DNA of 64,000 bases from positions 1 to 64,000 of the forward strand of contig CALUPL010000111.1 of assembly GCA_944322635.1 (NCBI GenBank), in the 5' to 3' direction. Under the pieces are notes generated by a model. That model was not told the DNA's origin, did no database searches, and worked only from the letters and a program-made list of their open reading frames with translations. Of this stretch, positions 33,074 to 62,251 are shown piece by piece (within the stretch, counting starts at the first letter, position 1; the number at the start of each line of letters is the position of its first letter). The translations under genes were made by a program, and so were the position numbers. The stretch comes from an uncultured Mailhella sp. (GTDB lineage Bacteria > Desulfobacterota > Desulfovibrionia > Desulfovibrionales > Desulfovibrionaceae).

Positions 33074-33279
33074 CGCCTCCGGCAGGAGCCATGCGCTCTC
33101 CCCAGCCTGCCTCATGCCTCATTTTTTCCGGAACGAGCCTTCCCCCGGCCTGTTCCGTTTTCCATACGTCCGCCGGCACTCTCCCGCTTCGGCTTCCGGC
33201 GGACACACGAAGACCGTCTCACGCCGGCAAACCCGAAACGGAAGCCTCCTCCGCCTGTGCAGACGGTCTTTCCGCAAGC

Positions 33280-33316
33280 AAAAGGCGGAGCCGATGACCT
33301 CGGCTCCGCCTTTTGC
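33280..33316. terminator. Bidirectional terminator
   Basis: A perfect 15-bp stem (33280-33294 with 33300-33314) with A/T ends, between the mipA-like gene and the convergent dehydrogenase. Confidence 0.92.
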
Positions 33317-33337
33317 TTTTTGTTTCAAATCCGAACG

Positions 33338-36994: not shown

Positions 36995-37091
36995 GACGGT
37001 CTCCTTGGAACAGAAAAAGGGAGGGCCCGGCGGAGCGAGACCGCTCTGCGCAGGCCCGATGAGAATATCGCGCGGACAGACCGCGAAGTGC

Positions 37092-38465
37092 CTACAGGTT
37101 CAGATTGATGTTGAGGCGGGAGGTGATGTTGTTCTTCACCCACGTGGAGTCCAGCCATTCCAGAGGCTGAACGGGCACGCCGCCCACGAGCACGCCGAAG
37201 TGCAGATGATCGCCTCCGGCAAGGCCGCTCGTGCCCGTGCGGCCGATGATCTGACCGGCCTTGACATTGTCGCCCACCTTCACGCCGTACTCGCTGAGGT
37301 GGGAATACTGCGTCATGAGTCCGAGGCCGTGCTCAATGAGAATCATGTTGCCGTGTATGCCGAGGTAATCCACCCACACCACCCGGCCGCTCTGCGCGGC
37401 GGGCACTTCGGCATGGGCCACGGAGGCGAGATCGAGTCCCATGTGGGTCTGTTCGTCGATCTTCTGACGGTTGCCGTCAACATAGGTACGAAAATCGCCG
37501 AAATTGGCCTTCACCGCGGAACGGGGCAGACGCCGGAACGATCCGCTCCACAAAAAGCGCGGGGAAACGTTGGCCGGATCGGCGGCCACCTTGATGAGCG
37601 TTTCGTCGTTGCCCTCGCGCACCTTGTTGTTGGCGCACAGATACTGGGAAAGCGGCGTGCTCTCTTCGGGACAGAGCTGGGCAAGCTCGCTGGCCTTGAA
37701 GTTGAGGAAGGCCTCGGGAATGTTCAGCGTGTCGGCCCGGTAGTTGCGGTTGAGCGCGTGCACGAGAAGACGACTCGACGTTACGTTGCCCGCCAGATCG
37801 CGGGCCATGATTTCGGGCAGATAGTCGCCGGTCTTCAGGGAAATGGGGAAGGGAAACAGACAGGCGTAGGCGCCGTTGTCCTGCTTGTAGCCGGGGAAGA
37901 AGAGATTGCCCACGCGAACGCCCGTCTGATTCACGTCTTCGGAAACGGTATAGACGATCAGCCCGCTGCCGCCTCTGTACATGGCGGGAGGCCCGGTGCG
38001 CACGGCAATGCGGGGCGGCTGGGAATCGAGAACGAGAGGCAGCTCGATGCTGGTGGTGTTGCCCCGGCCGAAGCCGGCATAGGAACCGTCCACGGCTCTG
38101 ATTTCCAGTTCAAAGGCACCTTCCGGCAGTTTCGTTTCCTTCAGATTGAAAGACACCTTCTGCCTGTTCTCCAGCGTGGGAAAGGTCTGATCGAGAACGG
38201 TCATGCTCTGCTCGCCGCGCTTCACCACCACGGACACGGACTGCACGCCGGACTTGTCGGACATGTCGAGCTCAATGTTCTGCAAAAGCCCCACGCGGCC
38301 GGCGAGTTCGGGATTCATGGTCACGGAAGGACCGCTCAGATCGCGCATGAGAAAATACGCGCCGGCCCCCGCAAGCGCCAGAATCAGCAGCATGGCTATG
38401 ACGGACAGCCCGGAGGAAGAGCGCCGGGACGAGGATCGATAGGAAATTTGTCTTCTGCTAAACAA
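37092..38465 (-). CDS. M23-family metalloendopeptidase with N-terminal membrane anchor
   Basis: 457 residues from a proposed TTG start at 38465 (AAGGA 7 bases upstream). No in-frame ATG gives a sensible N-terminus; upstream Met codons add unlikely sequence. A short basic cytoplasmic stretch is followed by one membrane helix (SGLSVIAMLLILALAGAGAY), a long periplasmic region, and a C-terminal LytM domain with the Zn motifs HMGLD and HLHFG. Both are intact, so it should cleave peptidoglycan crosslinks. It is transcribed toward the dehydrogenase gene, 97 bases apart. Confidence 0.85.
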   Translation of the reverse strand: MFSRRQISYRSSSRRSSSGLSVIAMLLILALAGAGAYFLMRDLSGPSVTMNPELAGRVGLLQNIELDMSDKSGVQSVSVVVKRGEQSMTVLDQTFPTLENRQKVSFNLKETKLPEGAFELEIRAVDGSYAGFGRGNTTSIELPLVLDSQPPRIAVRTGPPAMYRGGSGLIVYTVSEDVNQTGVRVGNLFFPGYKQDNGAYACLFPFPISLKTGDYLPEIMARDLAGNVTSSRLLVHALNRNYRADTLNIPEAFLNFKASELAQLCPEESTPLSQYLCANNKVREGNDETLIKVAADPANVSPRFLWSGSFRRLPRSAVKANFGDFRTYVDGNRQKIDEQTHMGLDLASVAHAEVPAAQSGRVVWVDYLGIHGNMILIEHGLGLMTQYSHLSEYGVKVGDNVKAGQIIGRTGTSGLAGGDHLHFGVLVGGVPVQPLEWLDSTWVKNNITSRLNINLNL

Positions 38466-38739
38466 GGCTGCATCCTTTTCCGGGCAAAAGGCCCAAATGA
38501 TATAGGGCCGCGCCACGCGCTGGCACGGCAGAACGTATTTTCTCGCACACTGCGCCAACAAGTCAAGGAACTTCGAAAAACATTTTTCTTGCGGGGCTTC
38601 CGACAGGGGCGCGACATATCTTATATTCTTCGGATGGATGAAGTTTTTTCCCTTTTCCCGGCCTCCTTCCGCCTTGCCGCAACGGCCCTCTTTATGATAA
38701 GCCCTACCCAATGATATGACCTTGCGGGGGAGAAGAGGT

Positions 38740-47474: not shown

Positions 47475-49427
47475 TTAATCGCTTTCGGACTCATTCGAAA
47501 GGGGAAAAGAGAGCGCCATGGTGGAACCTTCACCCACCTGCGAAAATACGGCAATCTCTCCTTCGTGCATTTCCACGATATGCCGGGAAATATACAGCCC
47601 GAGGCCGAAGCCCTTGCTTCCCTTGGTGGAGAAGAAGGGATCGAAAATCTTTTTTCTGTTCTCCTCGCTTATGCCGCTGCCACAGTCGGTAAGGGCAAGC
47701 TCCACACGCCCTCCGACACAACGCCCCTCCAGAACAAGAGCCCTCTGCTCCGTCGCCTCCATGCTGTCGAGCGCGTTTATGAGCAGGTTCAGCACCAGCT
47801 GTTCCAGAAGTATTCTGTTGCCCTTCATGGGCAGGTCTTCGGGCAGAAAACTTTCGTCCACTCTCACGGAACGCAGCCGGGGCTTGAGAAAGAACAGAGC
47901 CTCTCGCGCTATCCGGGCAAGATTCTGCCGCTCATACTGCACGGAATTCGGCAAAGCTATGTTCAGAAGGCGCCTCGTGGTGTTCACGGCGCGTTCGCCG
48001 TTTCTATGTATGGCATTCAGCATGGGCCGCATGGGGCTTTCCTCCGGGCAGTCTTCCAGCGCAATTTCCGCATTGGCCATGATTATGCCTATGGGATTGT
48101 TGATTTCGTGCGCCACGCCCGCCGCCAGCTTGCCGAGCACGGCAAGCCTCTCCATTTCCATGACCTGCTTATCCAGTCTTCTGCGTTCGGTCATGTCGCG
48201 GCCTATGAGACATATGGCATAGGGAGAACTTTCAAGATCGGCCATGAACAGGCTCACTTCCAGCACAAGCTCCTCTTCCGTTCCCTGCCCCAGCACTATT
48301 TCCCTCCGCAGCGCTCCGTTGCGGGGAATCAGCTGAACAAAACGTTCAAGGCATCCGCTCGTTCCGCTGCACAGGGCATCCATGAGCAGGGAACTGTAGC
48401 CGGACTCGGCAATGTGCAGTACGCTTCTCGCCGCGCGGTTGGAAAGGGTTATCCTGCCGTTCTCGTCGAGCAGAAGAATGATGTCCGGCGATTCCTCGAT
48501 GAGCTCCCTGTATTTTCTTTCCGAGCGTATGAGTCTGCGCGAAACCTTGCGCACCTGACGCTTCAAGGCATAAATCCACGTGACGGTGGCCAGAAGCACG
48601 CACGCCAGCAGCGCCACCGCGCACAGAATGTGATAATGGTACAGCTCCCACAGACTGGGCACGTACAGGGAACGCCCGAGCCAGAGCGCACGCAGTTTCT
48701 CAACCTCGCCGTTTTCCTCAAGGCGTACAAGAGCACTCGTCATGCGCTCCAGAAGCCCCGACCGTCGCCCCACCATCATCACCATGGGAATACGCTCCAG
48801 AGAGCCGCCCATGACGCGTATATCCTTGTACTTTTTGCTCTGTACAATATGGAATGCCATCTCCACGGAACTGGCGATGTAGGCGTCGGCCTGACCGTCC
48901 ACAAGACGGTTGAGCGCATTGGTCATGGAATCCGCCTGCACCACGGTGCAGCCCATGGAAAGCATTTTGGGAATGTAGGTGTCGCCTCGCTGCAGAATGA
49001 CCTTCCGGCCGGCAAGGTCGCTTTCCATGGAAAACTGATGTTCCGGCCCCGCCACGAGAATCGCCCGGTTCAGGGCCAGAGGCGTGACCAGAACGTCGGA
49101 AAAATCGTTCTTGAGGTTCACGGGCAGAAGCCCCACCATGGCGTCTATTTCTCCGCGCTGCAGCTTCTGCTCCAGCTTGCGGGCGTTGCTCTGCACGAAC
49201 ACGATGTTCTTGCCGAGTTCCTCCGACATCTTTACGCTGAGGTCCACGGCCAGCCCCAGAACCCCGGTTCTGTCTTCATTAAGAAAGGACAGCGGCGCGG
49301 AATGAGGCGGCACCCCTATGATCAGCGTGTTTCCCCGGTCCGGCACGACGGCCGAGGCGGCTTTCGACGCCGGCAGAAGGCTCATCCAGAAAAGACTCAG
49401 AAAAAGCAGCACGAACAGACGACGCAT
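47475..49427 (-). CDS. Sensor histidine kinase with periplasmic SBP_bac_3 domain
   Basis: 650 residues. Signal peptide 1-24; periplasmic solute-binding domain about 28-255 (TLIIGVPPHSAPLSFLN ... GLAVDLSVKMSEELG); membrane helix about 265-287; PAS about 300-415; dimerisation/phosphoacceptor domain with H440 in AAGVAHEINNPIG; HATPase about 535-645 with NLLINALDS, DCGSGIS and GFGLGLYI. The start at 49427 has GAGGAG; the open frame upstream lacks sense. Transcribed divergently from the first short arylsulfotransferase-like gene. No response regulator is adjacent; the likely partner is at 55666. Confidence 0.9.
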   Translation of the reverse strand: MRRLFVLLFLSLFWMSLLPASKAASAVVPDRGNTLIIGVPPHSAPLSFLNEDRTGVLGLAVDLSVKMSEELGKNIVFVQSNARKLEQKLQRGEIDAMVGLLPVNLKNDFSDVLVTPLALNRAILVAGPEHQFSMESDLAGRKVILQRGDTYIPKMLSMGCTVVQADSMTNALNRLVDGQADAYIASSVEMAFHIVQSKKYKDIRVMGGSLERIPMVMMVGRRSGLLERMTSALVRLEENGEVEKLRALWLGRSLYVPSLWELYHYHILCAVALLACVLLATVTWIYALKRQVRKVSRRLIRSERKYRELIEESPDIILLLDENGRITLSNRAARSVLHIAESGYSSLLMDALCSGTSGCLERFVQLIPRNGALRREIVLGQGTEEELVLEVSLFMADLESSPYAICLIGRDMTERRRLDKQVMEMERLAVLGKLAAGVAHEINNPIGIIMANAEIALEDCPEESPMRPMLNAIHRNGERAVNTTRRLLNIALPNSVQYERQNLARIAREALFFLKPRLRSVRVDESFLPEDLPMKGNRILLEQLVLNLLINALDSMEATEQRALVLEGRCVGGRVELALTDCGSGISEENRKKIFDPFFSTKGSKGFGLGLYISRHIVEMHEGEIAVFSQVGEGSTMALSFPLSNESESD

Positions 49428-49485
49428 ACGAGACTCCTCATCATGATAAAACACCATGATCCGTTGTGCCGCAAGCAAAAAAAAC

Positions 49486-49501
49486 GTGCGGCTTTTCGCA
49501 C
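49486..49501. promoter_or_regulatory. Dyad GTGC-N8-GCAC, candidate activator site (copy 1)
   Basis: GTGC at 49486-49489 and GCAC at 49498-49501. Centre about 94 bp upstream of the sigma-54 -24 element and about 66 bp upstream of the divergent kinase start. The same dyad recurs at 51934 and 57161. Confidence 0.6.
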
Positions 49502-49585
49502 ACACGCCCCGGCCATGTGCGGAATTTCTCACGAAGCCTCACGGCAATAAAAATGATCTCACTGATATAACTGGAAAAAACAAAA

Positions 49586-49601
49586 TGGCACGCTCTTTGC
49601 T
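49586..49601 (+). promoter_or_regulatory. Sigma-54 promoter of arylsulfotransferase-like gene 1
   Basis: TGGCAC-GCTCT-TTGCT: consensus -24/-12 with correct 12-bp GG-to-GC spacing, 46 bases before the ATG. Confidence 0.9.
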
Positions 49602-49646: not shown

Positions 49647-51113
49647 ATGAACCGTCGTCAATTTCTCATGGGACTGTCCGCGGCCGCAGCGGCCACGGCG
49701 GCGCCTTCCCTGAGCTGGGCATTCCCTTCCGTCTTTCCCCACGGAACCACCATCTACAAGCCGGAAAAGTGCTGGAACGGCTATACCGTGTTCGGCGTGG
49801 AAACCGCAGGGCAAGGCTGCGTGCTCATCGACATGAACGGCAACATCGTTCACGAATGGAAAAACGTGAGCGAACTTGAACATCCCACCAAGCTGCTCAA
49901 GGGCGGCTACGTCATGGGCGCCACCCGGCAGAAGCCGGAAATGAAGGGCCGCACCTTCGGCGATCCCATGTCCGCCGACCTCTCCATCTGCGACTGGAAC
50001 GGCAAGATAGTGCGCAACATTCCGCTCGCCGGCATGCATCACGACTTTCAGGTGGAAGGCAGCCCCACCGGCTACTTCTCCCCCAGCATGGGCGTGGAGT
50101 ACAAGCCCGACGGCAGAATTCTCGTGCTTTCTCATCTGTTCACCGAAAATCCCGCCATCACGAAGAAAAAGCCTCTCGACGACGACTACATCTTCGAGGT
50201 GGACAAGGACAACAACATTCTCTGGGACTGGAAGGCCTTTGAACATTTCGACGAGCTGAATCTGCCCGAAGACATGAAGAAGACCATGTACAAGTTCCCC
50301 TCCTGGCAGATGACCCGCACGCCCGGCGTGAAGGCCGCAGACTGGATGCACATGAACTCCGCCTCCTACCTCGGCCCCAACCACTGGTACGACGAGGATC
50401 CCGTCAAGTACGCGGCCTTCAATCCCGAAAACATCATCTGCTCCTGCCGGCAGCTCAACACCTGCTTCATCATCGACAAGGCCTCCAAGAAGATCGTGTG
50501 GCAGATAGGCCCCACCTTCTATCCTGAGGACAAGTGGGTGTTCGCGGGCAAGGAATACAAGCGCGCCCTCTACCGCCTCGGACAGATAGTGGGTCAGCAT
50601 CACTGCCACATGATTCCTGCCGGTCTTCCGGGTGCGGGCAACATTCTGGTGTACGACAACGGCGGCTATGCCGGCTACGGCGACAGAAACCCCACTTCTC
50701 CCATGGGCTGGAGCAACGCCCGCCGCGACTACTCGCGCGTTCTGGAATTCGACCCGGTCACCCTCAAGAAGGTGTGGGAACATTCCGCCGCCACCATGGG
50801 TCTGCGCGAAACCTACAAGTTCTACAGCGACTACGTAAGCTCCGCCCAGCGTCTGCCCAACGGCAACACCCTCATCACCAACGGCGCCGTGGGTCAGTTC
50901 CAGGAAGTCACTCCCGAACATGAAATCGTGTGGGAATACATAAGCCCCTGGTACAACCCCAACGGCAAGTTCAACCTGGTGTATCGCGCCTACCGCGTGC
51001 CCTACGACTACGTTCCCCAGCTCAAAAAGCCGCAGGAATTCGCCGTCATTCCGCCCGAAAACACCTCCTTCACCATTCCCGCCAGCAAAACGCCCTATCA
51101 GGCGAAAAGCTGA
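49647..51113 (+). CDS. Arylsulfotransferase-like beta-propeller protein 1 (Tat-exported)
   Basis: 488 residues with a twin-arginine signal (NRRQFLMGLSAAAA, cleavage near SWA-FP). The mature protein starts with the shared signature PxGTTIYKPEK and repeats of the type VLIDMNGNIVHEWK. Arylsulfotransferase landmarks are kept: DWMHMNS, GQHHCHMI, LVYDNGG. The position of the AssT nucleophile His is Thr411 (NGNTLITNG). Export by Tat suggests it folds or binds a cofactor before export. It may be an enzyme with altered chemistry or a binding propeller. Two helix-hairpin-helix genes follow. Confidence 0.85.
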   Translation: MNRRQFLMGLSAAAAATAAPSLSWAFPSVFPHGTTIYKPEKCWNGYTVFGVETAGQGCVLIDMNGNIVHEWKNVSELEHPTKLLKGGYVMGATRQKPEMKGRTFGDPMSADLSICDWNGKIVRNIPLAGMHHDFQVEGSPTGYFSPSMGVEYKPDGRILVLSHLFTENPAITKKKPLDDDYIFEVDKDNNILWDWKAFEHFDELNLPEDMKKTMYKFPSWQMTRTPGVKAADWMHMNSASYLGPNHWYDEDPVKYAAFNPENIICSCRQLNTCFIIDKASKKIVWQIGPTFYPEDKWVFAGKEYKRALYRLGQIVGQHHCHMIPAGLPGAGNILVYDNGGYAGYGDRNPTSPMGWSNARRDYSRVLEFDPVTLKKVWEHSAATMGLRETYKFYSDYVSSAQRLPNGNTLITNGAVGQFQEVTPEHEIVWEYISPWYNPNGKFNLVYRAYRVPYDYVPQLKKPQEFAVIPPENTSFTIPASKTPYQAKS

Positions 51114-51231
51114 GGCCGTTCCCTGAACGGGATACGGAAGGCCTCTTCTCTCTTCCCCGGCCGGAAGAAACGAAAGGCCGGCCTCATGAACGATGGAACG
51201 CTTCCATCACAAACGCTCTTATGGAGCAGAC

Positions 51232-51567
51232 ATGAAAACATCTCTTGCAACACTTCTTCTCGGCGCGTTTCTCTGCGTATCCTCCCCGGCCCTGGCCGAG
51301 GACGTGGAACTCGGCCCCGACGCCTTCGACCTGAACAAGGCCACGGCCGAGCAGCTCATGGAGATACCCGACGCCAACATCACTCCGGAAATGGCCAACG
51401 AAATAGTACAGATGGCCAAGACCAAGCCCTTCGAACTGCCCGAGGACTTCCTGAAGGTTCCGGGACTGGACAACCACACGCTGCAGGCCATCAATCCCAT
51501 TGAGCATGGCGGAACCCTGTGGTACGATCCCGACGCCGAGCTTACGCTGGCCCCTTCAAAGTGCTGA
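51232..51567 (+). CDS. Secreted helix-hairpin-helix (ComEA-like) protein 1
   Basis: 111 residues: signal peptide to about residue 23 (SSPALA-ED), then one ComEA-type HhH unit pair (DLNKATAEQLMEIPDANI ... LPEDFLKVPGLDNHTLQAI). The usual Gly of the first hairpin is replaced (IPDAN). The C-terminal tail NPIEHGGTLWYDPDAEL resembles the tail of the next gene product. It ends in Cys. ComEA domains bind DNA in competence proteins, but HhH units in other secreted proteins may serve as small scaffolds. GGAG precedes the start. Probably co-transcribed with the gene at 49647. Confidence 0.75.
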   Translation: MKTSLATLLLGAFLCVSSPALAEDVELGPDAFDLNKATAEQLMEIPDANITPEMANEIVQMAKTKPFELPEDFLKVPGLDNHTLQAINPIEHGGTLWYDPDAELTLAPSKC

Positions 51568-51584
51568 TTTCATCGGAGAACAGT

Positions 51585-51902
51585 ATGCATATGACCCGTA
51601 TTGCCATACCGCTGCTTGCAGTCTGCCTGACGGCTGCTCCTGCGTATGCCGGGTCTTTCAGCTTCAACAGGGCCAGTGCAGAAAAAATGGTGCGGGACTG
51701 CGCGGAAGAAGGCGTGAACCTGCCCATGAAAACGGCGCTGGCCATTGTCGAGGCCCGTTCCGACAGGCGCTTCACCAGCATCGGCGACCTTACCGACATT
51801 CCTGGCATGACCGAAGAGCTTCTCCGGGATCTTGATCCCATTGAAGAAGAAAACGATCTCGTTTTCAATCCCAATGCTCTGCCCGGCATGAAGTCGTACT
51901 GA
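51585..51902 (+). CDS. Secreted helix-hairpin-helix protein 2
   Basis: 105 residues, signal peptide ending PAYA-GS, then SFNRASAEKMVRDCAEEG ... TSIGDLTDIPGMTEELL, a diverged ComEA-like HhH pair, and a tail DPIEEENDLVFNPNAL. It is a paralogue of the preceding protein, 17 bases downstream. GGAG lies 6 bases before the ATG at 51585; another ATG follows at 51591. No DNA-uptake genes are near. Confidence 0.75.
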   Translation: MHMTRIAIPLLAVCLTAAPAYAGSFSFNRASAEKMVRDCAEEGVNLPMKTALAIVEARSDRRFTSIGDLTDIPGMTEELLRDLDPIEEENDLVFNPNALPGMKSY

Positions 51903-51951: not shown

Positions 51952-52012
51952 CGCAGGCTTGTCTTCGGTCTTTTTCTGATCCAACCGACATGATTTAAAA
52001 CAAAAAATGTCG

Positions 52013-52029
52013 TCGGCACACATCTTGCA
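52013..52029 (+). promoter_or_regulatory. Sigma-54 promoter of arylsulfotransferase-like gene 2
   Basis: TCGGCAC-ACATC-TTGCA: GG and GC 12 bp apart; one base off consensus in the -24 box. Confidence 0.85.
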
Positions 52030-52099
52030 TAACGACATTTCAAAAGCCTTTCCAAGAAGAACGTGGCACTTTCCCTTTACCTCAACCAAGGAGAATCGT

Positions 52100-53386
52100 A
52101 TGAACTTTCTGAAAGCGACCTGCACGGCCTGCGGACTTGCTGCACTGCTGATAGCTTCCTCCGCCGATGCCAGACCTACCGTCTATCCTACCGGTACGAC
52201 GATCTTCAATCCTGAAAAGGCGCAGAGCGACGTATTCATCATGGTTGTTCATCCGACTCGTGTCGCTATCATGGATCGAAACGGCAACGAGTACCACAAT
52301 TGGAAAATACCTGCCAACTGGACAAACATCCGTGCTCGTCTGGATAAGGAAGGTAATCTTTTACTTGCTGGTGCCGTCAAGGAAATTGGCAACACTACCA
52401 AGGAAGAATATCCTGCATATATTGCAGAATTCGGATGGGACGGTAAGCAAAACTGGCGTCACGAAGTACCTAAAGGACTGGACTGGCACAACGACGTGAC
52501 CAAGCTGAAGAACGGCAACATCGTCTATACCGCCTACTCCGTCATTCCTGAAGAATATCAGAAAAAGCTCAAGGACGTGGAGCTGCCCTGGGGAACCTTC
52601 AAGCGCAGCGGCGTGAACATGCGCGGCGACGTACTGGTTGAAGTGAACCCCAAAAACAACAAGATTGTCTGGAAATGGAACACCTGGGAACATCTCGACC
52701 TCAACAAGTTCTCTCCCGTGTGCCCCAACTCCGACTGGACGCACATGAACAGCATTCAGGAACTGCCCGAAAACAAGTGGTATGACGGCGGCGACAAGCG
52801 CTTCAAGCCCGGTAATCTTCTCATCAACCCCCGCAACCTCGATGAATTCTACATCATCGAAAAGGAAACCGGAAAGGTCGTCTGGGCCGGCAACCACTCC
52901 TACAAGACCGGTCTTGCCCACTGCCACGAACCTCAGATGATTGAAAAGGGTCTTCCCGGAGCCGGCAACATCATCTTCTTCGACAACGGCCTTTTTGCCA
53001 AGACCAGAGACCGCGTGGGCATGACTCTCCTCGGCGAACTCAACCCCGTGACCGGCGAACTGGAATGGCAGTATGAAAGCAAGGGCTATTCCAACATGCA
53101 CTTCTTCAGCAAGACCATGGGTTCCGAATCCCGTCTGCCCAACGGCAACACCTTCATTTCCGAAGACAACACCGGCCGTCTGTTCGAAGTCACGCACGAC
53201 CTGAAGAATCCCGAAGGCGGCGAGATAGTCTGGGAATACATGATGCCCACCTACTCTCAGCGCAGCCGCATCTACCTTGCCGACTACTGCCCGCAGTTCA
53301 AGCAGATCAAGCGCGTGACCAAGCCCTTCGCCGTCAATCCTCCCAAGAATGAAGACTTCCACATCGCTCCCACCATCCAGAAGTAA
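52100..53386 (+). CDS. Arylsulfotransferase-like beta-propeller protein 2
   Basis: 428 residues, Sec signal to about residue 22 (SSADA-RP). Shares the opening YPTGTTIFNPEKAQ, DWTHMNS, LAHCHEPQMI and IFFDNGLF with the other short paralogues; the nucleophile position is Ser (NGNTFISED). The ATG at 52100 has AAGGAG and follows the sigma-54 promoter, so the longer open frame is excluded. The first 400 bases use T-ending and rarer codons (for example TTA, CCT, GGT) while the rest uses the usual GC-rich set, a sharp change near 52490. Confidence 0.83.
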   Translation: MNFLKATCTACGLAALLIASSADARPTVYPTGTTIFNPEKAQSDVFIMVVHPTRVAIMDRNGNEYHNWKIPANWTNIRARLDKEGNLLLAGAVKEIGNTTKEEYPAYIAEFGWDGKQNWRHEVPKGLDWHNDVTKLKNGNIVYTAYSVIPEEYQKKLKDVELPWGTFKRSGVNMRGDVLVEVNPKNNKIVWKWNTWEHLDLNKFSPVCPNSDWTHMNSIQELPENKWYDGGDKRFKPGNLLINPRNLDEFYIIEKETGKVVWAGNHSYKTGLAHCHEPQMIEKGLPGAGNIIFFDNGLFAKTRDRVGMTLLGELNPVTGELEWQYESKGYSNMHFFSKTMGSESRLPNGNTFISEDNTGRLFEVTHDLKNPEGGEIVWEYMMPTYSQRSRIYLADYCPQFKQIKRVTKPFAVNPPKNEDFHIAPTIQK

Positions 53387-53436: not shown

Positions 53437-53922
53437 ATGAAGCTGCTTGCTGTCATCAAAACGTTTGTGTTGTTTCTCGCCGTATGCTGCATGACGACTC
53501 CCGCCGTTGCCGAAGAAGAAAATGAAGACATCACGGCCTATGTCGTCGCCTCCGATGCCGTGTTCAACAGCCTTACCGGCATGAAGAGCTACTGCGAGAA
53601 TGAAGGCGTGCCCTTCGTTCAGATAAAGAACAAGGATCAGCTCAAGAACGTGGAAAAATGCCTCGTCATAGGCAATCCCTCCGACGAATCCCTGGCCGGC
53701 GACATCATCCGCGCCTGCCTGGATGAAAAGGAAATGAAGAACGCCAACACCATGGGCAAGGGCGTGCTGGCGGAAAAGACCTACGAGGGAAAACAGGTGC
53801 TCATTTTCGCCACGGCCTACAGCGTCAACACCTTCGTCAAGAGCCATGCCGACGAATGGAAGGACATCTTTGAATCGTGGTACTACATTTCCCGTTCCAT
53901 CACGAGCATCATCGGTTACTGA
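53437..53922 (+). CDS. Small secreted protein of unknown function
   Basis: 161 residues with signal peptide (TPAVA-EE near 25). The mature part is a small alpha/beta domain: ITAYVVASDAVFNSL ... EKCLVIGNPSDESLAGDIIRACL ... KQVLIFATAYSVNTF. I do not recognise a family. Two Cys residues (YCENEG, EKCL, plus ACL) could form a disulfide. It is 50 bases downstream of the second propeller gene and ahead of a strong terminator, so it likely belongs to that transcript. Confidence 0.75.
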   Translation: MKLLAVIKTFVLFLAVCCMTTPAVAEEENEDITAYVVASDAVFNSLTGMKSYCENEGVPFVQIKNKDQLKNVEKCLVIGNPSDESLAGDIIRACLDEKEMKNANTMGKGVLAEKTYEGKQVLIFATAYSVNTFVKSHADEWKDIFESWYYISRSITSIIGY

Positions 53923-54126: not shown

Positions 54127-54192
54127 GGGGCGGACTGTGCGTTCCGTTCCTAAAAGAAGCAACCATTTCAACTTCTTTGAAGGATGGCACTC

Positions 54193-55605
54193 ATGAGCAG
54201 TCTTGTTTTTTCCGCACTTGCGGCCGCATCCTTTCTCGGCACGGCGCTTCTGCTCTTTCCACGCAGGGCAAAAGCCGTGGAAACCATGTCCACGCCTACC
54301 GGCGTTCTGATCTATGACAAGGAAAAGGCTCAGGCAGGCTATACGCTGATCTCTCCCATGCAGTCCACGTCGAGCTACCTTCTCGACATGGAAGGCAACG
54401 TGGTGCACGAGTGGAAAACCGCCGGTCTGCCCGGTCTCTATGCCGAACTTCTGCCGAACGGCAATCTGCTGCGAGGCATACGCTACGAAAAAAAGGTGCC
54501 CTTCGGCGGAGTTTCCGGCGGGCTTCAGGAAATCGACTGGGACGGCAACGTGGTGTGGGAACACAACATCTACGACGACGGCAGGCTGAGCCATCATGCC
54601 TTCGACCGCATGCCGAACGGCAACACCCTCATCGTGGCCTGGGAACACAAGACCTGCGAAGAAGCCGAGGCCAAAGGCCGCAAACCGGGAACACTGCCCA
54701 GGCCCGGTGAAGATACCGGTCACACTCCCGCCTACGACGGCCTGTGGGCCGACTACATCGTGGAGGTGGACAGAGAAGGCAACGAAGTATGGTCCTGGCA
54801 CGCCTGGGACCACATAGGCACGGGCAGAAATGAATTCGACATCAACTACCGCCTTCCCATCAAAAATTATTACGGCGACTCCGACTGGATGCACATAAAC
54901 AGCGTCCGGTACAACCCGGAAACCGACAGCGTTCTCATAAGCTCCCGCAACTTCTGCGAAGTGTTCATAGTCAGCCACGACGCCGAAGGAAGGGTTCTGT
55001 GGCGCTTCGGCAATCCCGGCAGCCACGGCGAAGGCGCTCTGCCCTCCTTCTGCGACGACGGCAGCCAGACACTCTTCGGCAATCACGACGCCACATGGCT
55101 CGGCAACGACAGAATATCGCTGTTCGACAACGGCTGGCAGCGCCCGCAGGCCAATCGTTCCCGCGCCGTGGTGGTGAACGTGGAAACAAGACGCGTAGAA
55201 TGGGAATACGCGGCCAACAACCTCAATTCCTTCTACAGCGCCTATCAGGGGTCCGCCCAGCATCTTCCGAACGGCAACGTGCTCATCACCTCCACGGCTA
55301 CGGGACACATTTTTGAGGTGACGCAGGACAAGCGCGTCGTGTGGGAATACGTGAGTCCCTTCATGAGCGAAGGCAGAGCAAAAGCCGTGCTTACGGAAGA
55401 CGACGCCACGGCCGATCCCGACGGCGTGAAGGACATCAATCTTACCGCCAACGTGGTGCACCGTGCCTTCCGCTACGCCCCCGACCATCCCGGTCTGGTG
55501 GGCAGGGATCTGTCACGGAAGACGGAGGTTTTTCCCGGCGCGCCCAAATGGCATGAGCTGTTCGCCAGAGCCGCCGCCCTCACCTCTCCCCTGAACGACC
55601 GATAA
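54193..55605 (+). CDS. Arylsulfotransferase-like beta-propeller protein 3
   Basis: 470 residues with a Sec signal (FPRRAKA-VE near 31). It keeps TPTGVLIYDKEKAQ, repeated YLLDMEGNVVHEWK-type blades, DWMHINS, GNHDATWL, LFDNGWQRP; the nucleophile position is Thr (NGNVLITST). The ATG at 54193 has AAGGA at good spacing; ATG 54184 is too close to it. A separate transcript from the genes before it. Confidence 0.83.
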   Translation: MSSLVFSALAAASFLGTALLLFPRRAKAVETMSTPTGVLIYDKEKAQAGYTLISPMQSTSSYLLDMEGNVVHEWKTAGLPGLYAELLPNGNLLRGIRYEKKVPFGGVSGGLQEIDWDGNVVWEHNIYDDGRLSHHAFDRMPNGNTLIVAWEHKTCEEAEAKGRKPGTLPRPGEDTGHTPAYDGLWADYIVEVDREGNEVWSWHAWDHIGTGRNEFDINYRLPIKNYYGDSDWMHINSVRYNPETDSVLISSRNFCEVFIVSHDAEGRVLWRFGNPGSHGEGALPSFCDDGSQTLFGNHDATWLGNDRISLFDNGWQRPQANRSRAVVVNVETRRVEWEYAANNLNSFYSAYQGSAQHLPNGNVLITSTATGHIFEVTQDKRVVWEYVSPFMSEGRAKAVLTEDDATADPDGVKDINLTANVVHRAFRYAPDHPGLVGRDLSRKTEVFPGAPKWHELFARAAALTSPLNDR

Positions 55606-55633: not shown

Positions 55634-55667
55634 GGCCCCTGCGGCTTTTCCACACGGGGCCTTTTTC
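55634..55667 (+). terminator. Terminator of arylsulfotransferase-like gene 3
   Basis: A 7-bp stem AGGCCCC/GGGGCCT (55634-55640, 55657-55663) with T tail, at the end of the convergent regulator gene. Confidence 0.75.
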
Positions 55668-57057
55668 ATCCCTTTCTGTCCATGAGTCCGAACTGCTCAA
55701 GCTTGTCGTAGAGCGTCCTTCTGCCTATGCCGAGAAGCTCGGCGGCCTGCGTCTTGTTGCCGCCGCACAGGGAAAGTGCCTGCTGAAGTGCCTGAATTTC
55801 GGCATTGCGCACCGCGTCGGAAAGCGACAGCGGCGTATCGGACACGGGAACCTCGCCGGAAGACGATGCGCCGGGCACAAGTTCGTTCATGGTTCCCAGA
55901 GATTCCGGCATGAGTCTGTCGCCTTCGGTCAGAAGAAAGGCGCGCTCAAGCACGTTTTCCAGTTCTCGTATGTTCCCCTTCCATGGCTGCTGATACAGAA
56001 TGTTCATGGCCGCGGGACTTATCTGCGTGACGTTGCGTCCGTACCGCTCGTTGAATCGGCTGATGAAAAACCCTATGAGCGCCGCCAGATCCTCACGGCG
56101 TTCCCGAAGCGGCGGCAGATACAGCGGAATGACGGAAAGCCGGTAGAAAAGATCCTCCCGGAAACGTCCGGTCTTTACGTCCTCCTCAAGATTGCGGTGC
56201 GTGGCGGCAATGAAGCGCACGTCTATGCTCACGCTTCTGTTGCTGCCCACCGGGCGTATTTCATGCTCCTGAATGGCTCGCAGCAGCTTTGCCTGCGTGG
56301 AAGGCGAAAGCTCGCCTATTTCGTCCAGAAACACCGTACCGCCCTGCGCCTCTTCCAAAAGGCCGCGGCGCGTGCTCACCGCTCCGGTGAAGGCTCCCTT
56401 CACGTGGCCGAAAAGCTCGCTTTCCAGCAAAGATTCCGGCAGCGCCGCACAGTCTATGGTAAGAAACGGCCTGTCCCTGAGAGGGCTTGCGCGGTGAATG
56501 TACTCGGCAAGACGGCTCTTGCCCGTGCCTGTTTCACCGGTAATGAGAATGGGCACACGCGTGCCCGCCACCTTGCCTATGGTCCTGAGCACCTGCTTCA
56601 TGGACGGGCTGTTGTATATGAGGGATACCGGCGTCTTATTCTCGCGCGGCCGGTCCAGAAGCTGACTGTGCAGCCTTGCGTGCTCGGCCGCCCTCTGCAC
56701 GAGAGCGGCAAGCTCGGCATTGTTCACCGGCTTTGTAAGATAGCTGTAGGCCCCGAGCTGCACGGCTTCCACCGCGCTTTCAATGGTGCCCACGCCCGTC
56801 ATCATGATGAAGGGAAGCGAGGCGTCCATGGCGCGCACGCGGCGCAGCACCTCAAGACCGCTCATGCCGGGCATGGAAAGGTCGCACACCACCACGTCTA
56901 TGCCGCCTGCGGCAATGCGGGCCAGAGCGCGTTCCCCGTTCAGCGCCGTTTCCGTCTTCCAGCCCTTGCGGGAAAAAAGCAGCGCCAGAATTTCATGCCA
57001 TTCCGGATCGTCGTCCACCACCAGAATCTGATAACCGCTCTTTCTGCTTTCGCTCAT
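55666..57057 (-). CDS. NtrC-type sigma-54 response regulator
   Basis: 463 residues. Receiver domain 1-125 with phosphoacceptor D59 ([10 protein letters not shown]); AAA+ domain with Walker A GETGTGKS, sigma-54-contact loop GAFTGA and FLDEIGEL; Fis-type helix-turn-helix at the end ([20 protein letters not shown]). The start at 57057 has GGGGAG. Its position among three sigma-54 promoters with a shared dyad makes it the likely activator; the kinase at 47475 is the likely partner, though 6 kb away. Confidence 0.92.
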
Positions 57058-57160
57058 ATTCTCCCCTGGAGCTTTTTCTTGCGGAACACACTGTAACGGC
57101 AACGGATGCCCTCGTAAAGAAGCCTTCCCTGCGCGAAACGAAGCACACCTTTGCCCCCGT

Positions 57161-57176
57161 GTGCAGCCCTTCGCAC
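57161..57176. promoter_or_regulatory. Dyad GTGC-N8-GCAC, candidate activator site (copy 3)
   Basis: GTGC at 57161-57164 and GCAC at 57173-57176, flanked by T/A to give 5-bp arms. Centre about 87 bp upstream of the -24 element of the next promoter. A second dyad, ATTGC-CC-GCAAT, is at 57224-57235. Confidence 0.62.
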
Positions 57177-57253
57177 ATTCTTCTTTGGCCTTTTCACGCA
57201 ACAATGCGGCATGTTTTTGCATAATTGCCCGCAATCATTTCCAATCATGTTTT

Positions 57254-57375: not shown

Positions 57376-60273
57376 ATGAACAAACTTCTCGCTTCCGGCG
57401 CCGCCGCAGCTCTTCTCTGCCTTCTCTTTTCCGGCGCCCCGGCCGCGGAAAGTCCGCATGGCCTTGCCCCGGCTGGCGACATGCCCTTCATTCCCGACCT
57501 GGGAGGCCTGCGACACAAGGCCTTCAAAAATCAGTACGGACAGCAGCGCGAGCTCTCTGAAGCCGTTCTCGTGCGGAAAAGCTCCGTCAAAAACGGCAAG
57601 GCCACCGTTCCCGCGGGCGGCCTGTGCTACATTTCGGAAACGCAGGAGGATGCCGCCCCCTTCCGGCGCGATCCCTTCCTTCTGCTCGGTGAGCACGCCT
57701 ATCTTGTGGACAGCAAGACAAGCGTGCGCTCGGTAAGGGACGTCAGCCTGAAAAAGGGCGAAAAGGTACTGGTGGACAATGCCGGCTACCGTCTCTGGTT
57801 CGACTATGCCACCGATCACTACGACCTGCCCTACATTCAGATGGCGCTCATCGCTCCTTCGGGCCACTGGCCCATGGAGTTTTCCGTATCCTCCAAGTTC
57901 CCGGCCATCAAGGATCTGCCCGACCGCAGCCACATGGAAGGCGACGTGGAACAGCTCGACGAGTTCTTTCTCGATCCCGTGTTCGAATACGGCGCAAGCC
58001 GTTTCGAAGTGAAGGACCACGACTTTCAGAAGGCCACCTTCTCCTCGCTCTCCTACCCCGTGATCGACGAAGCCACGTTTTCGCTTTCCCGCCCCGTGGT
58101 TCTGGATCTTCGCCAGGAGGAATACCGCCTTTACGGCACGAAGCGCATCTACGCCTTCCGCGAAAGCAGCGGATTCCGCGTCAGCGTGACTAACCTCGGC
58201 GGCGACAAGATACTCGCCGAAAAGCTGCTGCGTCCCATAAGCTCCCAGGGATACAAGGATGCGGAAAACGAAAAGGATGCCTACAGCCTCACCGTGCCCG
58301 GCGAGGACATGCGCGTGGAAATAGCCGTTCAGCCCGAATGGCTGCGTCATTCCGACTTCATGCCGTGGTCCGACGCCGTGCCTCACGACTGGAGCGACGG
58401 CATGCTGAGCCTCGTGGTCTATCGCGACCTCGTCACCGTGAAAAACGGCGAGCCCTGGCCGCTCGATCCCCGCTACACCGTGGGACTCGAAGCCAGCCTG
58501 CTCACCGGCAAGCTCCAGCGCCTTACCCTGGAAAACGCCGAACCCTTCACCCTCGACGACAAAAACGACAGCTACGACGGCCCCGTCAAATATTCCGACG
58601 TGTGGAACCGCCCGGCCTTCCGTCTTGTGGCCGACGACATCGAAGGCGACAAGGTGAAGAGCTACTACGTGCGCGACGCCTTTTTCCAGCGTACCGACAA
58701 TCTTTCCTTCACGGACAGGGGACGCAGGGACATAGACTGCTTCATCGGTCGTGCTCCCACCTTTGTTTCCATTCTGGAAGACAGTTTCCTTACCCGCCTT
58801 GCCACGCCGAAATTCGGCACCGAGGTGGAAGGCTCGCATTTCACCTCCTTCCCGAGCGTCATGCCGAACATGGCCTTCCACTCGCCCGATCCCACGGCCC
58901 CCTTCGGAGGGCTCATGCGCGGTTTCGGTCGCGAGCAGGTGACCAACCGCCGAGGGGAAAGACTCACCTCGTCCGAAGGACTCGTCATCCGCGGCAGCTA
59001 TGTGGACTGGAAGAACAACCGCATAGTCATTCCGCCTGCCGGCCTGTTCTACACCTCGCGCAACGCCCGCAACGTGCGCGCCCTGAACGGCGAAACCTTC
59101 TACATGCTCGGCCGGCGCGCCTACATAGCCACCTTCGAATCCACCACCTTCACGCGCCGCAACTTCGACATAGACTTCTGGCGCGTGCAGCCAGACGCCA
59201 GCCTGCACCCCATCTACTGGCAGGATCAGCCTCTCGGCGTGAACAACAAGGTGCTGCGCTTCACCGAAAAGCACCTGCTCGACGACAGACCCATGGCCCA
59301 GATCAACGTGGTGAAGTATTCGGGCAACAACTTCGGCGCGCCCTTCGAACTTGCCCAGGGACTCAGCCGCGAACAGGGCGACCGCTACTACCTGCACGAC
59401 CGCTTTGCCGAAGGCGCCACCTGGATTGAGCCGGAATTCGTGGGCGAAGACTACGTTCGCGTGAAAAGCTTCGGCACTCCCGCCATCAAAAGCGTGGAAT
59501 ACACCTACGAAAAGCCCGTACGCGCCCTGCTTGCTCCCGGCGAGGAAAAGGCTCTCGGCAAAAACCACACGCTCAGACTCGTCTCCTTCGACGAGGCGGC
59601 CGGAACCGCCACGGTGGAAATACGCAGAAACGACGGTTCTCTTGCAAAAACCCGAACCCTCGGCCCCCTCAATGCCAAAACCCGTGCCTTCCTGCCCCAG
59701 CATCAGCGCGTAGTGAACTCCCTGCAGTTTGCCTTCGATGAGGGCAAAAACAAGGTTCTTGCCGAAATGGACGTGAAAACGCCCTTCGAAAAGGGCAAAG
59801 CCGCCTTCTATACCTACACGGATCTCAAAAAGCTGGAAGGCGACACCCCCTTCGAAGGCGATCCGCGCTTCATGGTTCGTCCCGACGTGTGCGGCCACTG
59901 CTATCAGCTCAACGAAGTGCTGCTGGACAACCCGGAGCCCATCATTCTGGACAGGGAACATCCCCGCTTCGACGGCCCCCGCATGGCCGACGGCAAGCCG
60001 CAGTTCAGCATAGTCATCGACAGCTTCGACGGCGAGATGATTCACGCCTGGCACATCGAAACCAACTACCGCAAGCGCGTGTTCAAAAGCGCCAATCTGG
60101 CCTTCCAGCCGCGCAACAACGTAGGCGTGCTCATGGGCGTGAACGGCACCATCGAAGGTTTTCTGCGCGCGTCGCTCATGGAGCGTTCCGCCTGGCAGGA
60201 ATACTGGCGCACCGGAGCGCATCCCCATTCTGAACGTGGGCTCGACGCATGGCTGGCCCACAAGTTCCAATAG
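57376..60273 (+). CDS. Large secreted protein with two tandem copies of one module
   Basis: 965 residues, Sec signal to about 24. No known family recognised. Two halves are clearly related at an offset of about 465-472 residues: near 66 (VRKSSVKNGKATVPAGGLCY) and 538 (IRGSYVDWKNNRIVIPPAGL); near 364 (DPRYTVGLEAS ... ENAEPFTLDD) and 829 (DPRFMVRPDV ... DNPEPIILDR). Only the second copy has a CGHC pair (Cys839, Cys842). Mostly beta-strand and aromatic-rich, which suggests a soluble periplasmic or surface protein. AAGGAAG precedes the ATG at 57376. A transporter and small envelope protein genes follow closely. Confidence 0.8.
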   Translation: MNKLLASGAAAALLCLLFSGAPAAESPHGLAPAGDMPFIPDLGGLRHKAFKNQYGQQRELSEAVLVRKSSVKNGKATVPAGGLCYISETQEDAAPFRRDPFLLLGEHAYLVDSKTSVRSVRDVSLKKGEKVLVDNAGYRLWFDYATDHYDLPYIQMALIAPSGHWPMEFSVSSKFPAIKDLPDRSHMEGDVEQLDEFFLDPVFEYGASRFEVKDHDFQKATFSSLSYPVIDEATFSLSRPVVLDLRQEEYRLYGTKRIYAFRESSGFRVSVTNLGGDKILAEKLLRPISSQGYKDAENEKDAYSLTVPGEDMRVEIAVQPEWLRHSDFMPWSDAVPHDWSDGMLSLVVYRDLVTVKNGEPWPLDPRYTVGLEASLLTGKLQRLTLENAEPFTLDDKNDSYDGPVKYSDVWNRPAFRLVADDIEGDKVKSYYVRDAFFQRTDNLSFTDRGRRDIDCFIGRAPTFVSILEDSFLTRLATPKFGTEVEGSHFTSFPSVMPNMAFHSPDPTAPFGGLMRGFGREQVTNRRGERLTSSEGLVIRGSYVDWKNNRIVIPPAGLFYTSRNARNVRALNGETFYMLGRRAYIATFESTTFTRRNFDIDFWRVQPDASLHPIYWQDQPLGVNNKVLRFTEKHLLDDRPMAQINVVKYSGNNFGAPFELAQGLSREQGDRYYLHDRFAEGATWIEPEFVGEDYVRVKSFGTPAIKSVEYTYEKPVRALLAPGEEKALGKNHTLRLVSFDEAAGTATVEIRRNDGSLAKTRTLGPLNAKTRAFLPQHQRVVNSLQFAFDEGKNKVLAEMDVKTPFEKGKAAFYTYTDLKKLEGDTPFEGDPRFMVRPDVCGHCYQLNEVLLDNPEPIILDREHPRFDGPRMADGKPQFSIVIDSFDGEMIHAWHIETNYRKRVFKSANLAFQPRNNVGVLMGVNGTIEGFLRASLMERSAWQEYWRTGAHPHSERGLDAWLAHKFQ

Positions 60274-60284
60274 GCAGGTACATC

Positions 60285-61430
60285 ATGAACATTCCCTATG
60301 AGGAGCGCCGCCGCTCTTTCCTCAGCTGTCTCTACAGCACGCAGGAGATCCTGCCCGGTCTGCTGGCCATGTTCTTCATTGCGCTGTTCTCCAACAATCT
60401 GGCGGGAAGCCCCAACCCCCTCACGCTGGAGAACCTGTTCTCCTGGCTCGATGCCGTCATCGGCCCCGTGAACCATCAGCCTCTCTTTCAGATTCTCAAC
60501 TCCAACTTCGTGTGGAATCCCTTTCTGATGGGCCTTGTCATCGGCAACGTCTTCGGCGTGCCGGATTCGTGGAAGCGAGGGCTTTCCCTCATTCACGTTC
60601 TCATGCCGCTCGGCATCATCATGCTGGCGCCGCACTTCATCTTCAGTCACGCGGAAAAGGCGGGAATGCCCCTCATTCTCTTCGCGTTTGCCGTCATGGT
60701 GTTCACCGCCGTCGTCACCCTCGTTCTCGGCAGGGCTCTCGGCATGGACGACCGCCACTACTCCACCATTGCCGGTGCGCTTTCCACGGGCGACCCCCAT
60801 GTGGTGGCCATTCTCATGCCCATGCTGAAATCCAAGGGCGGACAGGTCATCAATGCGCTCGGCTGCATTCTGCTGTTCGGGCTTGTCGCATCCTTCCTGC
60901 TGCCTCTTCTCGGACACGCACTCGACATGGATGACAAGGCCTTTGCCGTGCTCTCCGTGTTCGGCATAGGCAACACGGGGCAGACGTTCAACGCGGCCTT
61001 CGGCTTCAGCTACGAGGCCGGACACTGGGCACATTACTTCGACAGCGTGCGCAACGCGCTCATGCCCGCGGGATTCCTGTTCGTGTTCTTCGTCATGTTC
61101 CTGCGCGCCAGAATGTTCCCCGACGATGCTGCCGTCACGGCCACCCGCGCCCACAAAAAACTTCCTCTGTTCATCGTGGTCTTCATCATCGCATGGATCG
61201 TGGTGCAGTTCCATGTCATGAAGGAGCCTGCCCGCATCGCCGTCTTCGAACTGGTGAAGTGGGACTTCTCCCTGGCCGCGGCCGCACTTGGGCTTTCGCT
61301 TCCCCTGAGCGAAATAACCCGGTGCGGACTGCGCGGCGTGATTCTCACCTTTGCCTCCGGCCTGGTGCGCATAGCCGTTCTCGCCGCCTGTCTTCTGGCT
61401 GCGGCCCACTTCAACTTCCCGCTCGTCTAA
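60285..61430 (+). CDS. YeiH/UPF0324-like membrane transporter (putative sulfate exporter)
   Basis: 381 residues with about ten membrane helices. Segments FLMGLVIGNVFGVPDSWKRG, the paired half-helix region at AGALSTGDPHVVAI, GNTGQTFNAAFGFSYEAG and AAAALGLSLPLSEITRCG line up with YeiH-type proteins, which are annotated as putative sulfate exporters on limited evidence. The usual Gly/Ser-rich core motif is changed here (ALSTGDP). It starts 12 bases after the large secreted protein gene. Within an arylsulfotransferase-like locus, handling of sulfate or an organic sulfate is a reasonable but unproven idea. Confidence 0.72.
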   Translation: MNIPYEERRRSFLSCLYSTQEILPGLLAMFFIALFSNNLAGSPNPLTLENLFSWLDAVIGPVNHQPLFQILNSNFVWNPFLMGLVIGNVFGVPDSWKRGLSLIHVLMPLGIIMLAPHFIFSHAEKAGMPLILFAFAVMVFTAVVTLVLGRALGMDDRHYSTIAGALSTGDPHVVAILMPMLKSKGGQVINALGCILLFGLVASFLLPLLGHALDMDDKAFAVLSVFGIGNTGQTFNAAFGFSYEAGHWAHYFDSVRNALMPAGFLFVFFVMFLRARMFPDDAAVTATRAHKKLPLFIVVFIIAWIVVQFHVMKEPARIAVFELVKWDFSLAAAALGLSLPLSEITRCGLRGVILTFASGLVRIAVLAACLLAAAHFNFPLV

Positions 61431-61440
61431 GGAGTATCGA

Positions 61441-61590
61441 ATGCGCCATTCCCACACAACCGACGATACCGGCTTCAACTACATGGACAACTCCGGGGAG
61501 GAGGAACGCGACCGCGACTTGGTGGGCATTGTTCTTGCCGTGCTCTTCATGCTGCTCGCCACGCTCTTCCAGCGTGCGGGACTTCTCTGA
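61441..61590 (+). CDS. 49-residue single-helix membrane protein
   Basis: A short open frame with AAGGAG 6 bases upstream, 10 bases after the transporter stop. A hydrophilic, acidic N-terminus (residues 1-24) is followed by one hydrophobic helix (LVGIVLAVLFMLLATLF). The size, spacing and topology fit a small accessory subunit of the transporter. No family recognised. Confidence 0.7.
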   Translation: MRHSHTTDDTGFNYMDNSGEEERDRDLVGIVLAVLFMLLATLFQRAGLL

Positions 61591-61732: not shown

Positions 61733-61936
61733 ATGACAGGCATCACCTTCCATCTTCAGATACTGTTCGCCCTGCTGCTCTTCTGGGCCACGGCAACGGC
61801 CATCTACATGGGCGTGTTCCACGCCCACAGTCCCCGGTGCGGCACGGGGCGCAGGCACCTGTGCCTTGCCGCATCCTCGCTGCTTTCCCTCGTCATCTGC
61901 TTTTTCATGTATTCCTGGTCCTATCTCAGCTGGTAA
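61733..61936 (+). CDS. 67-residue two-helix membrane protein
   Basis: GAGGAA precedes the ATG. Two hydrophobic helices (about 7-26 and 45-63) are joined by a short basic loop with Cys and His (HSPRCGTGRRHLC). No family recognised. It lies between the transporter group and the third helix-hairpin-helix gene, in the same direction. Confidence 0.68.
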   Translation: MTGITFHLQILFALLLFWATATAIYMGVFHAHSPRCGTGRRHLCLAASSLLSLVICFFMYSWSYLSW

Positions 61937-61954: not shown

Positions 61955-62251
61955 ATGAAACGTTCTCTCATTTCCGCTCTTGCCCTCGCCCTCTGCCTTT
62001 CCTTTTCCGCCGTCGCCTCTGCCGAGGACGGAGGCGTCAATGTGAACACCGCCACACAGCAGGAACTTTCCTCCGTGCCCGGCCTGAATGCCGACCTCGC
62101 CAAGGCCATTGTGAAGTACCGCGAAGAAATGGGCGATTTCATGTCCATCGACGAGCTTGCCGACGTTCCCGGCATGAACAGGGACGCTCTTGAGCAGGCA
62201 AAGCAGACTCTGCGCGTGGATGCCATTTCCGGCGCCGAGTGCAACTGCTGA
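61955..62251 (+). CDS. Secreted helix-hairpin-helix (ComEA-like) protein 3
   Basis: 98 residues: signal peptide to about residue 23 (SAVASA-ED), then a canonical ComEA-type domain (VNVNTATQQELSSVPGLNADLAKAIVKYREE ..., MSIDELADVPGMN, quoted in parts). Unlike the two proteins near 51.5 kb it keeps the standard PGL and PGM hairpins and lacks their tail; it ends in CNC. AAAGGAG precedes the start; a strong terminator follows. Confidence 0.82.
   Translation: MKRSLISALALALCLSFSAVASAEDGGVNVNTATQQELSSVPGLNADLAKAIVKYREEMGDFMSIDELADVPGMNRDALEQAKQTLRVDAISGAECNC

Follow-up and report, generated by a model that had tools for sequence, protein, structure and literature searches.

DUP, a secreted two-module protein of an uncultured Mailhella, looks like the cysteine form of an undescribed selenoprotein family

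Results

Genes at the DUP locus

The window analysed here is the whole stretch of 64,000 nucleotides from an uncultured Mailhella sp., and it contains a gene for a secreted protein composed of two modules, which we designated DUP. The features of the locus are listed in Table 1. The N-terminus of DUP, as judged from the translated ORF, resembles a signal peptide (MNKLLASGAAAALLCLLFSGAPAAES). The neighbouring YeiH-type membrane protein scored 107 bits with PF03601 (cut-off 24.5) and stayed under the cut-off of the subfamily model TIGR00698 (54 bits vs 232.6); by its sequence, it is a divergent relative of YeiH. The three sulfotransferase-like proteins exceeded the PF05935/PF14269 cut-offs. The catalytic residues of AssT described previously (PMC13426309) are His252, His356, Asn358, Arg374 and His436, and in the profile alignment to 3elq, the equivalent places are occupied by His, HxN, Arg and QH. 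The sigma-54 type site, which rests on a pattern match only, lies 61 bases ahead of the first sulfotransferase gene. No molybdenum operon was found beside DUP in the window assembly.

Two further regions of the window are recorded as separate observations. A secreted 161-aa protein without a family is encoded at 53437-53922, between the sulfotransferases, and its C-terminal part (DEW..F..W) is resembled at L104:11670-11945, beside another sulfotransferase/DUP locus. The region 33257-38714 contains long overlapping ORFs of 1283 and 636 aa on the + strand and of 1218 and 586 aa on the - strand, and the coding strand is ambiguous there because the + strand ORFs have no Pfam match.

Table 1. Features of the DUP locus in the window
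Feature	Position	Strand	Basis or remark
Sensor histidine kinase, periplasmic SBP_bac_3 and PAS domains	47475..49532	-	
Sigma-54 type site TGGCACGCTCTTTGCT, upstream of sulfotransferase operon	49586..49601	+	Pattern match only
Arylsulfate sulfotransferase-like protein 1, TAT-type leader	49647..51113	+	PF05935
Small secreted helix-hairpin-helix protein ending APSKC	51193..51567	+	
Second small secreted helix-hairpin-helix-like protein, end MKSY	51582..51902	+	
Arylsulfate sulfotransferase-like protein 2	52007..53386	+	
Arylsulfate sulfotransferase-like protein 3	54184..55605	+	
Sigma-54 response regulator, divergent from DUP	55666..57234	-	Likely start near 57057
DUP, 965-aa secreted two-module protein	57376..60273	+	ORF translation, self-comparison
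DUP module 1, residues ~27-490	57454..58845	+	CxxC and WHxE lost
DUP module 2, residues ~497-950, putative catalytic copy	58864..60225	+	
CGHC of DUP, residues 839-842	59890..59901	+	C839 is the Sec (TGA) position of single-module relatives
WHIE of DUP, residues 892-895	60049..60060	+	H893 invariant in 15/15 modules retaining C/U
YeiH-type membrane protein	60249..61430	+	PF03601, divergent; likely start near 60285
Conserved 49-aa one-helix membrane protein (TTDxxGFxYM...)	61441..61590	+	
Conserved 67-aa membrane protein	61733..61936	+	
Small secreted helix-hairpin-helix protein ending CNC	61955..62251	+	PF12836

Internal duplication of DUP and divergence of the two copies

The sequence-only reading had described DUP as an internal duplication, with matching blocks offset by 465-472 residues, and predicted a strong off-diagonal signal in a self-alignment, which was obtained. 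Residues 25-480 aligned with residues 481-965 in BLASTP at 87 bits (E=9e-23, 21% identity, 476 columns). The Smith-Waterman score of the same halves was 226, as compared with 37.6 +/- 5.5 for shuffled sequences (~34 standard deviations), and 0/300 shuffles reached it. The best four ungapped 25-residue diagonals had offsets of 465, 462, 474 and 472, in agreement with the blocks noticed earlier. Profiles of the two copies, each built on 9-10 orthologues, matched each other with a probability of 99.9 (E=2.3e-35, 413 columns). A four-fold repeat, with diagonals near 236-242, was also considered and ruled out, as the N-half and C-half profiles gave E values of only 0.2-0.5.

The module had also been called unknown, and it remains so after the database searches. 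DUP had no match in Pfam, NCBIfam, PHROGs or the PDB sequences, its single-module relatives (described below) had none in the curated family libraries, the PDB profile searches gave chance matches only, and no relative of DUP was found in the viral sequence collection. Orthologues of DUP at 89-92% are present in uncultured Mailhella (Desulfovibrionaceae), and those at 52-66% in Candidatus Mailhella excrementigallinarum, a Desulfobacteraceae MAG, strain NaphS2 and an Acidobacteria MAG. A DUP relative was contained in 29/247 genomes of Desulfovibrionaceae, and additional two-module copies are present in other families of Desulfobacterota. A single-module paralogue was not found in the window's own genome, of which the assembly is 87.8% complete.

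The CGHC motif was originally noticed in the second copy only, and this restriction holds beyond the window: CGHC is retained in all ten copy-2 sequences from divergent orthologues, and the corresponding residues of copy 1 are E-[AP]-x-L. Neither the Cys pair nor the WHxE His survives in any of the nine copy-1 sequences compared. Judged by profile score, copy 2 lies nearer to the single-module proteins (E=9e-68) than to copy 1, while the tree groups copies 1 and 2 against the single-module proteins with weak support (84/82) and places copy 1 on a long branch. From these scores and placements, the two-module form is therefore old. The data do not decide between a tandem duplication and a fusion of two paralogues as the origin of DUP.

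Single-module relatives with an in-frame TGA at the first cysteine

Secreted single-module relatives of ~480 aa were found in other Desulfobacterota, and some of them contain exactly one in-frame TGA. In 21 relatives, spread over Desulfovibrionaceae and two families coded f16 and f10, the TGA lies precisely at the first Cys of CGHC, and the other relatives have Cys there. With the TGA read as U, the motifs are UATC, UASC, USTC and UPQC. The sequence contexts of the Sec forms are RPETUATCTYPHE, RPDTUASCSELNE and RPETUATCTFIHE, to which RPDVCGHCYQLNE is the counterpart in the window protein, and two Cys forms show RPEICAECSFIHE at the Sec site. The Sec forms of another family read RPDTUSTCSMFIE, and one distant form reads HYLUPQCYMM. 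Cys occupies the TGA column in DUP, L037, L040, L100 and the Paracoccus relative. The second Cys is absent from the last two, which are distant relatives (CPQG and CPTG, respectively), and a simple CxxC disulfide cycle is therefore not valid family-wide. Two positions do not vary across 15 diverse members, namely the first C/U and the WHxE His. As a side observation, the L100 relative (5828-7315) is encoded near an HdrA-like/MvhD-like gene pair, possibly a further sulfur-redox context.

On either side of the TGA, dN was far below dS in 10 Sec pairs and one Cys pair, and downstream of it dN/dS was well below 1 in 10/10 Sec pairs tested. No family listed in the 2026 catalogue of prokaryotic selenoproteins (Table 1 of PMC13188914) fits the single-module relatives, and no model of NCBIfam, in which many of the catalogued selenoprotein families are represented, matches the DUP family. 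From sequence evidence alone, without biochemical data on any member, the single-module relatives look like an undescribed selenoprotein family. DUP itself has Cys codons at positions 839 and 842 and no TGA-coded Sec, and is thus a Cys homologue; it looks like the two-module Cys form of the proposed family. The two copies had been suspected to differ in function, one structural and the other redox or metal-binding. Divergence of the copies with a redox copy 2 is now supported far more strongly than by the sequence of DUP alone, because single-module relatives have TGA or Cys exactly at the C839 position, which all copy-1 sequences have lost. The structural role of copy 1 is an inference only.

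Selenocysteine machinery and SECIS elements

The window genome contains selB and encodes a TGA-containing formate dehydrogenase, and tRNA-Sec was above the cut-off in 16/19 genomes, including that of the window. A strong bSECIS hairpin was detected in L102 (8 bp, loop GGUCU, spacing 21 nt, -12.3 kcal/mol, 0/200 synonymous shuffles), and weak ones in L097 and L101. No canonical bSECIS was found beside the TGA of the Mailhella single-module genes; the formate dehydrogenase of those genomes has one. This shortfall is the main gap in the selenoprotein case. Codon conservation after the TGA in Mailhella was reduced, but a Cys control gave a similar result, which the TGA genes did not clearly exceed. 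One candidate element in the Mailhella UATC group, a 7-bp stem at columns 31-37/50-56 with one compensatory change, was rejected as not significant (65/500 shuffles).

Predicted structure of module 2

The AlphaFold2 model of full-length DUP had a pLDDT of only 49 and was set aside. A model of residues 690-950, for which the alignment included both copies of orthologues, had a pLDDT of 75.8. In Foldseek, its top structural match (probability 0.99, E 0.004) was the DUF1608 domain of the Methanosarcina S-layer, and VIA-align gave Z 9.3 over 97 residues at 3.5 A; this covers half of the domain and rests on one predicted model. The match spans residues ~705-816 only, leaving the CGHC part outside, and TIGR01567 matched the same stretch of DUP weakly (E 0.07-0.12; 12 bits vs the cut-off of 121.9). 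The model thus suggests a beta-sandwich scaffold for part of module 2, not covering the CGHC region. Around the CxxC motif the model is all-beta. The structure matches listed included no thioredoxin-fold chain, although such a fold is not thereby ruled out, and no family member matched the thioredoxin-superfamily models in Pfam and NCBIfam.

Conserved gene context

In every locus that extends far enough, the YeiH-type gene comes next after DUP. Further along, most DUP loci contain membrane proteins of 49-50 and 65-67 aa, together with a helix-hairpin-helix protein that is small and secreted and has CNC, CTC or a similar tail. DUP loci also hold a second small protein ending APSKC or SPSKC, a sigma-54 response regulator and an SBP-PAS kinase. 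Arylsulfate sulfotransferases, one to five within the flanks examined, are found in the region of most of them. Separately, it was observed that the number of sulfotransferase paralogues by DUP varies among Mailhella species (L002-L006 and L012), with up to five in the available flank, and that many of these enzymes are just 38-44% identical to the window copies, indicating rapid turnover.

Several Sec forms are encoded in an operon of their own, which comprises the CNC-tailed protein, the selenoprotein, a TAT molybdenum oxidoreductase, an Fe-S protein and cytochrome b. In L107, from a genus within Desulfovibrionaceae, DUP, YeiH and both tiny membrane proteins lie in a single array with a molybdenum oxidoreductase, the same one that accompanies the selenoproteins, and this array further contains a CNC-type protein, an Fe-S protein, cytochrome b and a regulator. 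The molybdenum gene is also near DUP in L104 and L105. At several single-module loci, neither a sulfotransferase nor the molybdenum operon is adjacent.

The USTC selenoprotein genes are directly preceded by an unannotated and unrelated small secreted protein ending APDEGC (L097:6452-6766, L098:5873-6130, L099:9165-9449 and L101:6503-6790). In these loci, a C-terminal Cys was present in 29/108 small secreted ORFs vs 13/385 other genes; these counts come from a crude gene finder, and related loci are not independent. The Paracoccus relative is in an operon with cysteine desulfurase, TusA, DsrE, selA and trxB, and selB is also nearby. As a side observation, 848-17449 of L108 (Paracoccus ferrooxidans pFER4) is a selenium/sulfur island on a large plasmid, with selB, selA, trxB, TusA, DsrE and a TusA-MetE fusion, and its ORF pair 7026-7268 and 7308-7595 resembles a selenoprotein gene split at its TGA.

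Discussion

We consider it probable, in the absence of biochemical data, that DUP belongs, as a two-module protein, to an unrecognised secreted thiol/selenol redox family. In module 2, which would be the periplasmic enzyme, C839 would act as the nucleophile and C842 as the resolving Cys; R831, H893 and E895 are close to them in the sequence. Candidate reactions at this site are disulfide, persulfide and S-sulfonate exchange, with the helix-hairpin-helix proteins taking part through their C-terminal Cys, both partner and substrate being inferred. Where the molybdenum/Fe-S/cytochrome b complex is present, it would deliver electrons from the quinone pool. Module 1, inferred from its lost residues to be catalytically dead, would preserve the two-module shape.

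The gene cluster as a whole, so far uncharacterised, seems to deal with sulfate esters and sulfite on the outer side of the inner membrane. A link to organosulfates is inferred from the sulfotransferases with conserved catalytic residues that neighbour DUP, and one to sulfite from the YeiH-type neighbour, as YeiH is required for sulfite resistance in Salmonella (PMC12880088). The pathway would most likely move or reduce organosulfate-derived sulfur groups, with the YeiH-type protein handling sulfite. An undescribed extracytoplasmic route from organosulfate to sulfite can be imagined, which we put forward as a speculative hypothesis with little confidence. In this route, the sulfotransferases would transfer SO3 from aryl sulfates to the C-terminal Cys of the small carriers to form S-sulfocysteine, the UxxC/CxxC protein and the molybdenum complex would free sulfite reductively, and the YeiH-type protein would take it over the membrane to dissimilatory sulfite reduction; ATP-dependent sulfate activation would therefore not be needed. 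Among the Mailhella genomes, aprA was above the cut-off in 0/11 and dsrA in 8/11, which fits sulfite rather than sulfate use. The three DUP-bearing Mailhella assemblies in which dsrA was not found are that of the window (G000), G163, which is listed as 100% complete, and G170; close relatives have dsrA. The lack of dsrA in these three assemblies and the presence of aprA in other DUP carriers count against the route.

The loci would also allow DUP to be a dedicated periplasmic disulfide oxidase/isomerase for the adjoining sulfotransferases, a counterpart of DsbL/DsbI in uropathogenic E. coli without being related to them. The sulfotransferase genes in the region of most DUP loci and the CxxC/UxxC motif are compatible with such a folding helper, and E. 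coli AssT depends on its disulfide and on DsbL/DsbI (PMC13426309), the only enzyme for which the disulfide was confirmed there. We regard this as unlikely, since the selenoprotein forms are linked to the molybdenum operon and the CNC-tailed protein instead of sulfotransferases, and the constant neighbour is a YeiH-type transporter and not a DsbB/DsbI-like quinone reductase. The invariant Cys, His and Glu, close together in sequence, might alternatively ligate copper, zinc or Fe-S and so serve to transfer electrons or deliver metal. A metal site of this kind is quite doubtful: Sec stands first in many members and the second Cys is lost in others, which suits redox or nucleophile chemistry better, and there was no match to a metal-binding family or fold.

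The structural match raises the question of whether DUP is a surface or scaffold beta-sandwich protein of the S-layer DUF1608 type, with CGHC having only an incidental or a structural role. DUF1608 proteins are likewise often tandem (PMC3361143), and DUF1608 is the best match of the model (Foldseek E 0.004; Z 9.3), accompanied by the weak TIGR01567 hit. However, the matched part, ~705-816, excludes CGHC, the TIGR01567 score is 12 bits vs a cut-off of 121.9, and C/U839 and H893 are kept in 15/15 diverse members, making a mere scaffold improbable. That the in-frame TGAs are plain stops yielding shortened proteins, or codons recoded to something other than Sec, can be held only with great difficulty. 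Most TGA relatives do lack a canonical SECIS, but the TGA aligns with the Cys of homologues in unrelated families, ~100 residues beyond it are conserved under purifying selection, TGA terminates other genes of the same loci, and the Sec machinery is present (selB, tRNA-Sec, TGA-containing formate dehydrogenase).

If the thiol/selenol redox reading is true, the relatives of DUP constitute a new selenoprotein family, cut at the TGA by automatic annotation and missing from curated libraries, on an apparently non-thioredoxin beta scaffold. Sulfotransferases, a sulfite-linked transporter, C-terminal-Cys proteins and a quinone-linked molybdoenzyme would then form one periplasmic system in gut and marine sulfidogens, which bears on their use of host and dietary sulfate esters.

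Comparison with known systems

The beta-sandwich predicted for DUP at ~705-816 has its best structural match in Methanosarcina S-layer DUF1608 (PDB 3u2g, 3u2h; TIGR01567), and tandem domains and secretion are common to both. The DUF1608 domain is, however, ~260 aa as compared with ~460 aa for the DUP module, the DUP sequence is far under the TIGR01567 cut-off, and the DUP family has a conserved Cys/Sec site and a bacterial periplasmic context. Thioredoxin and DsbA/DsbL, together with their selenoprotein forms, likewise have a CxxC whose first Cys may be Sec, but the DUP family has no match to any model of this superfamily, its modelled region is all-beta around the motif, and some members do without the second Cys. 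DsrC and SoxYZ are sulfur-carrier systems with a C-terminal Cys arm. The small Cys-ending proteins of the DUP loci are similarly encoded beside sulfur-metabolism redox enzymes; unlike DsrC and SoxYZ, they have helix-hairpin-helix or unrelated scaffolds and are exported. The AssT-DsbL-DsbI operon of uropathogenic E. coli also links a periplasmic arylsulfate sulfotransferase to a CxxC protein. DUP is unrelated to DsbL, its membrane partner is YeiH-type, and its cluster adds C-terminal-Cys proteins, sigma-54 control and several sulfotransferase copies. With the catalogued prokaryotic selenoprotein families (PMC13188914), the DUP family has in common the UxxC motif, the Cys homologues and the patchy use of Sec.
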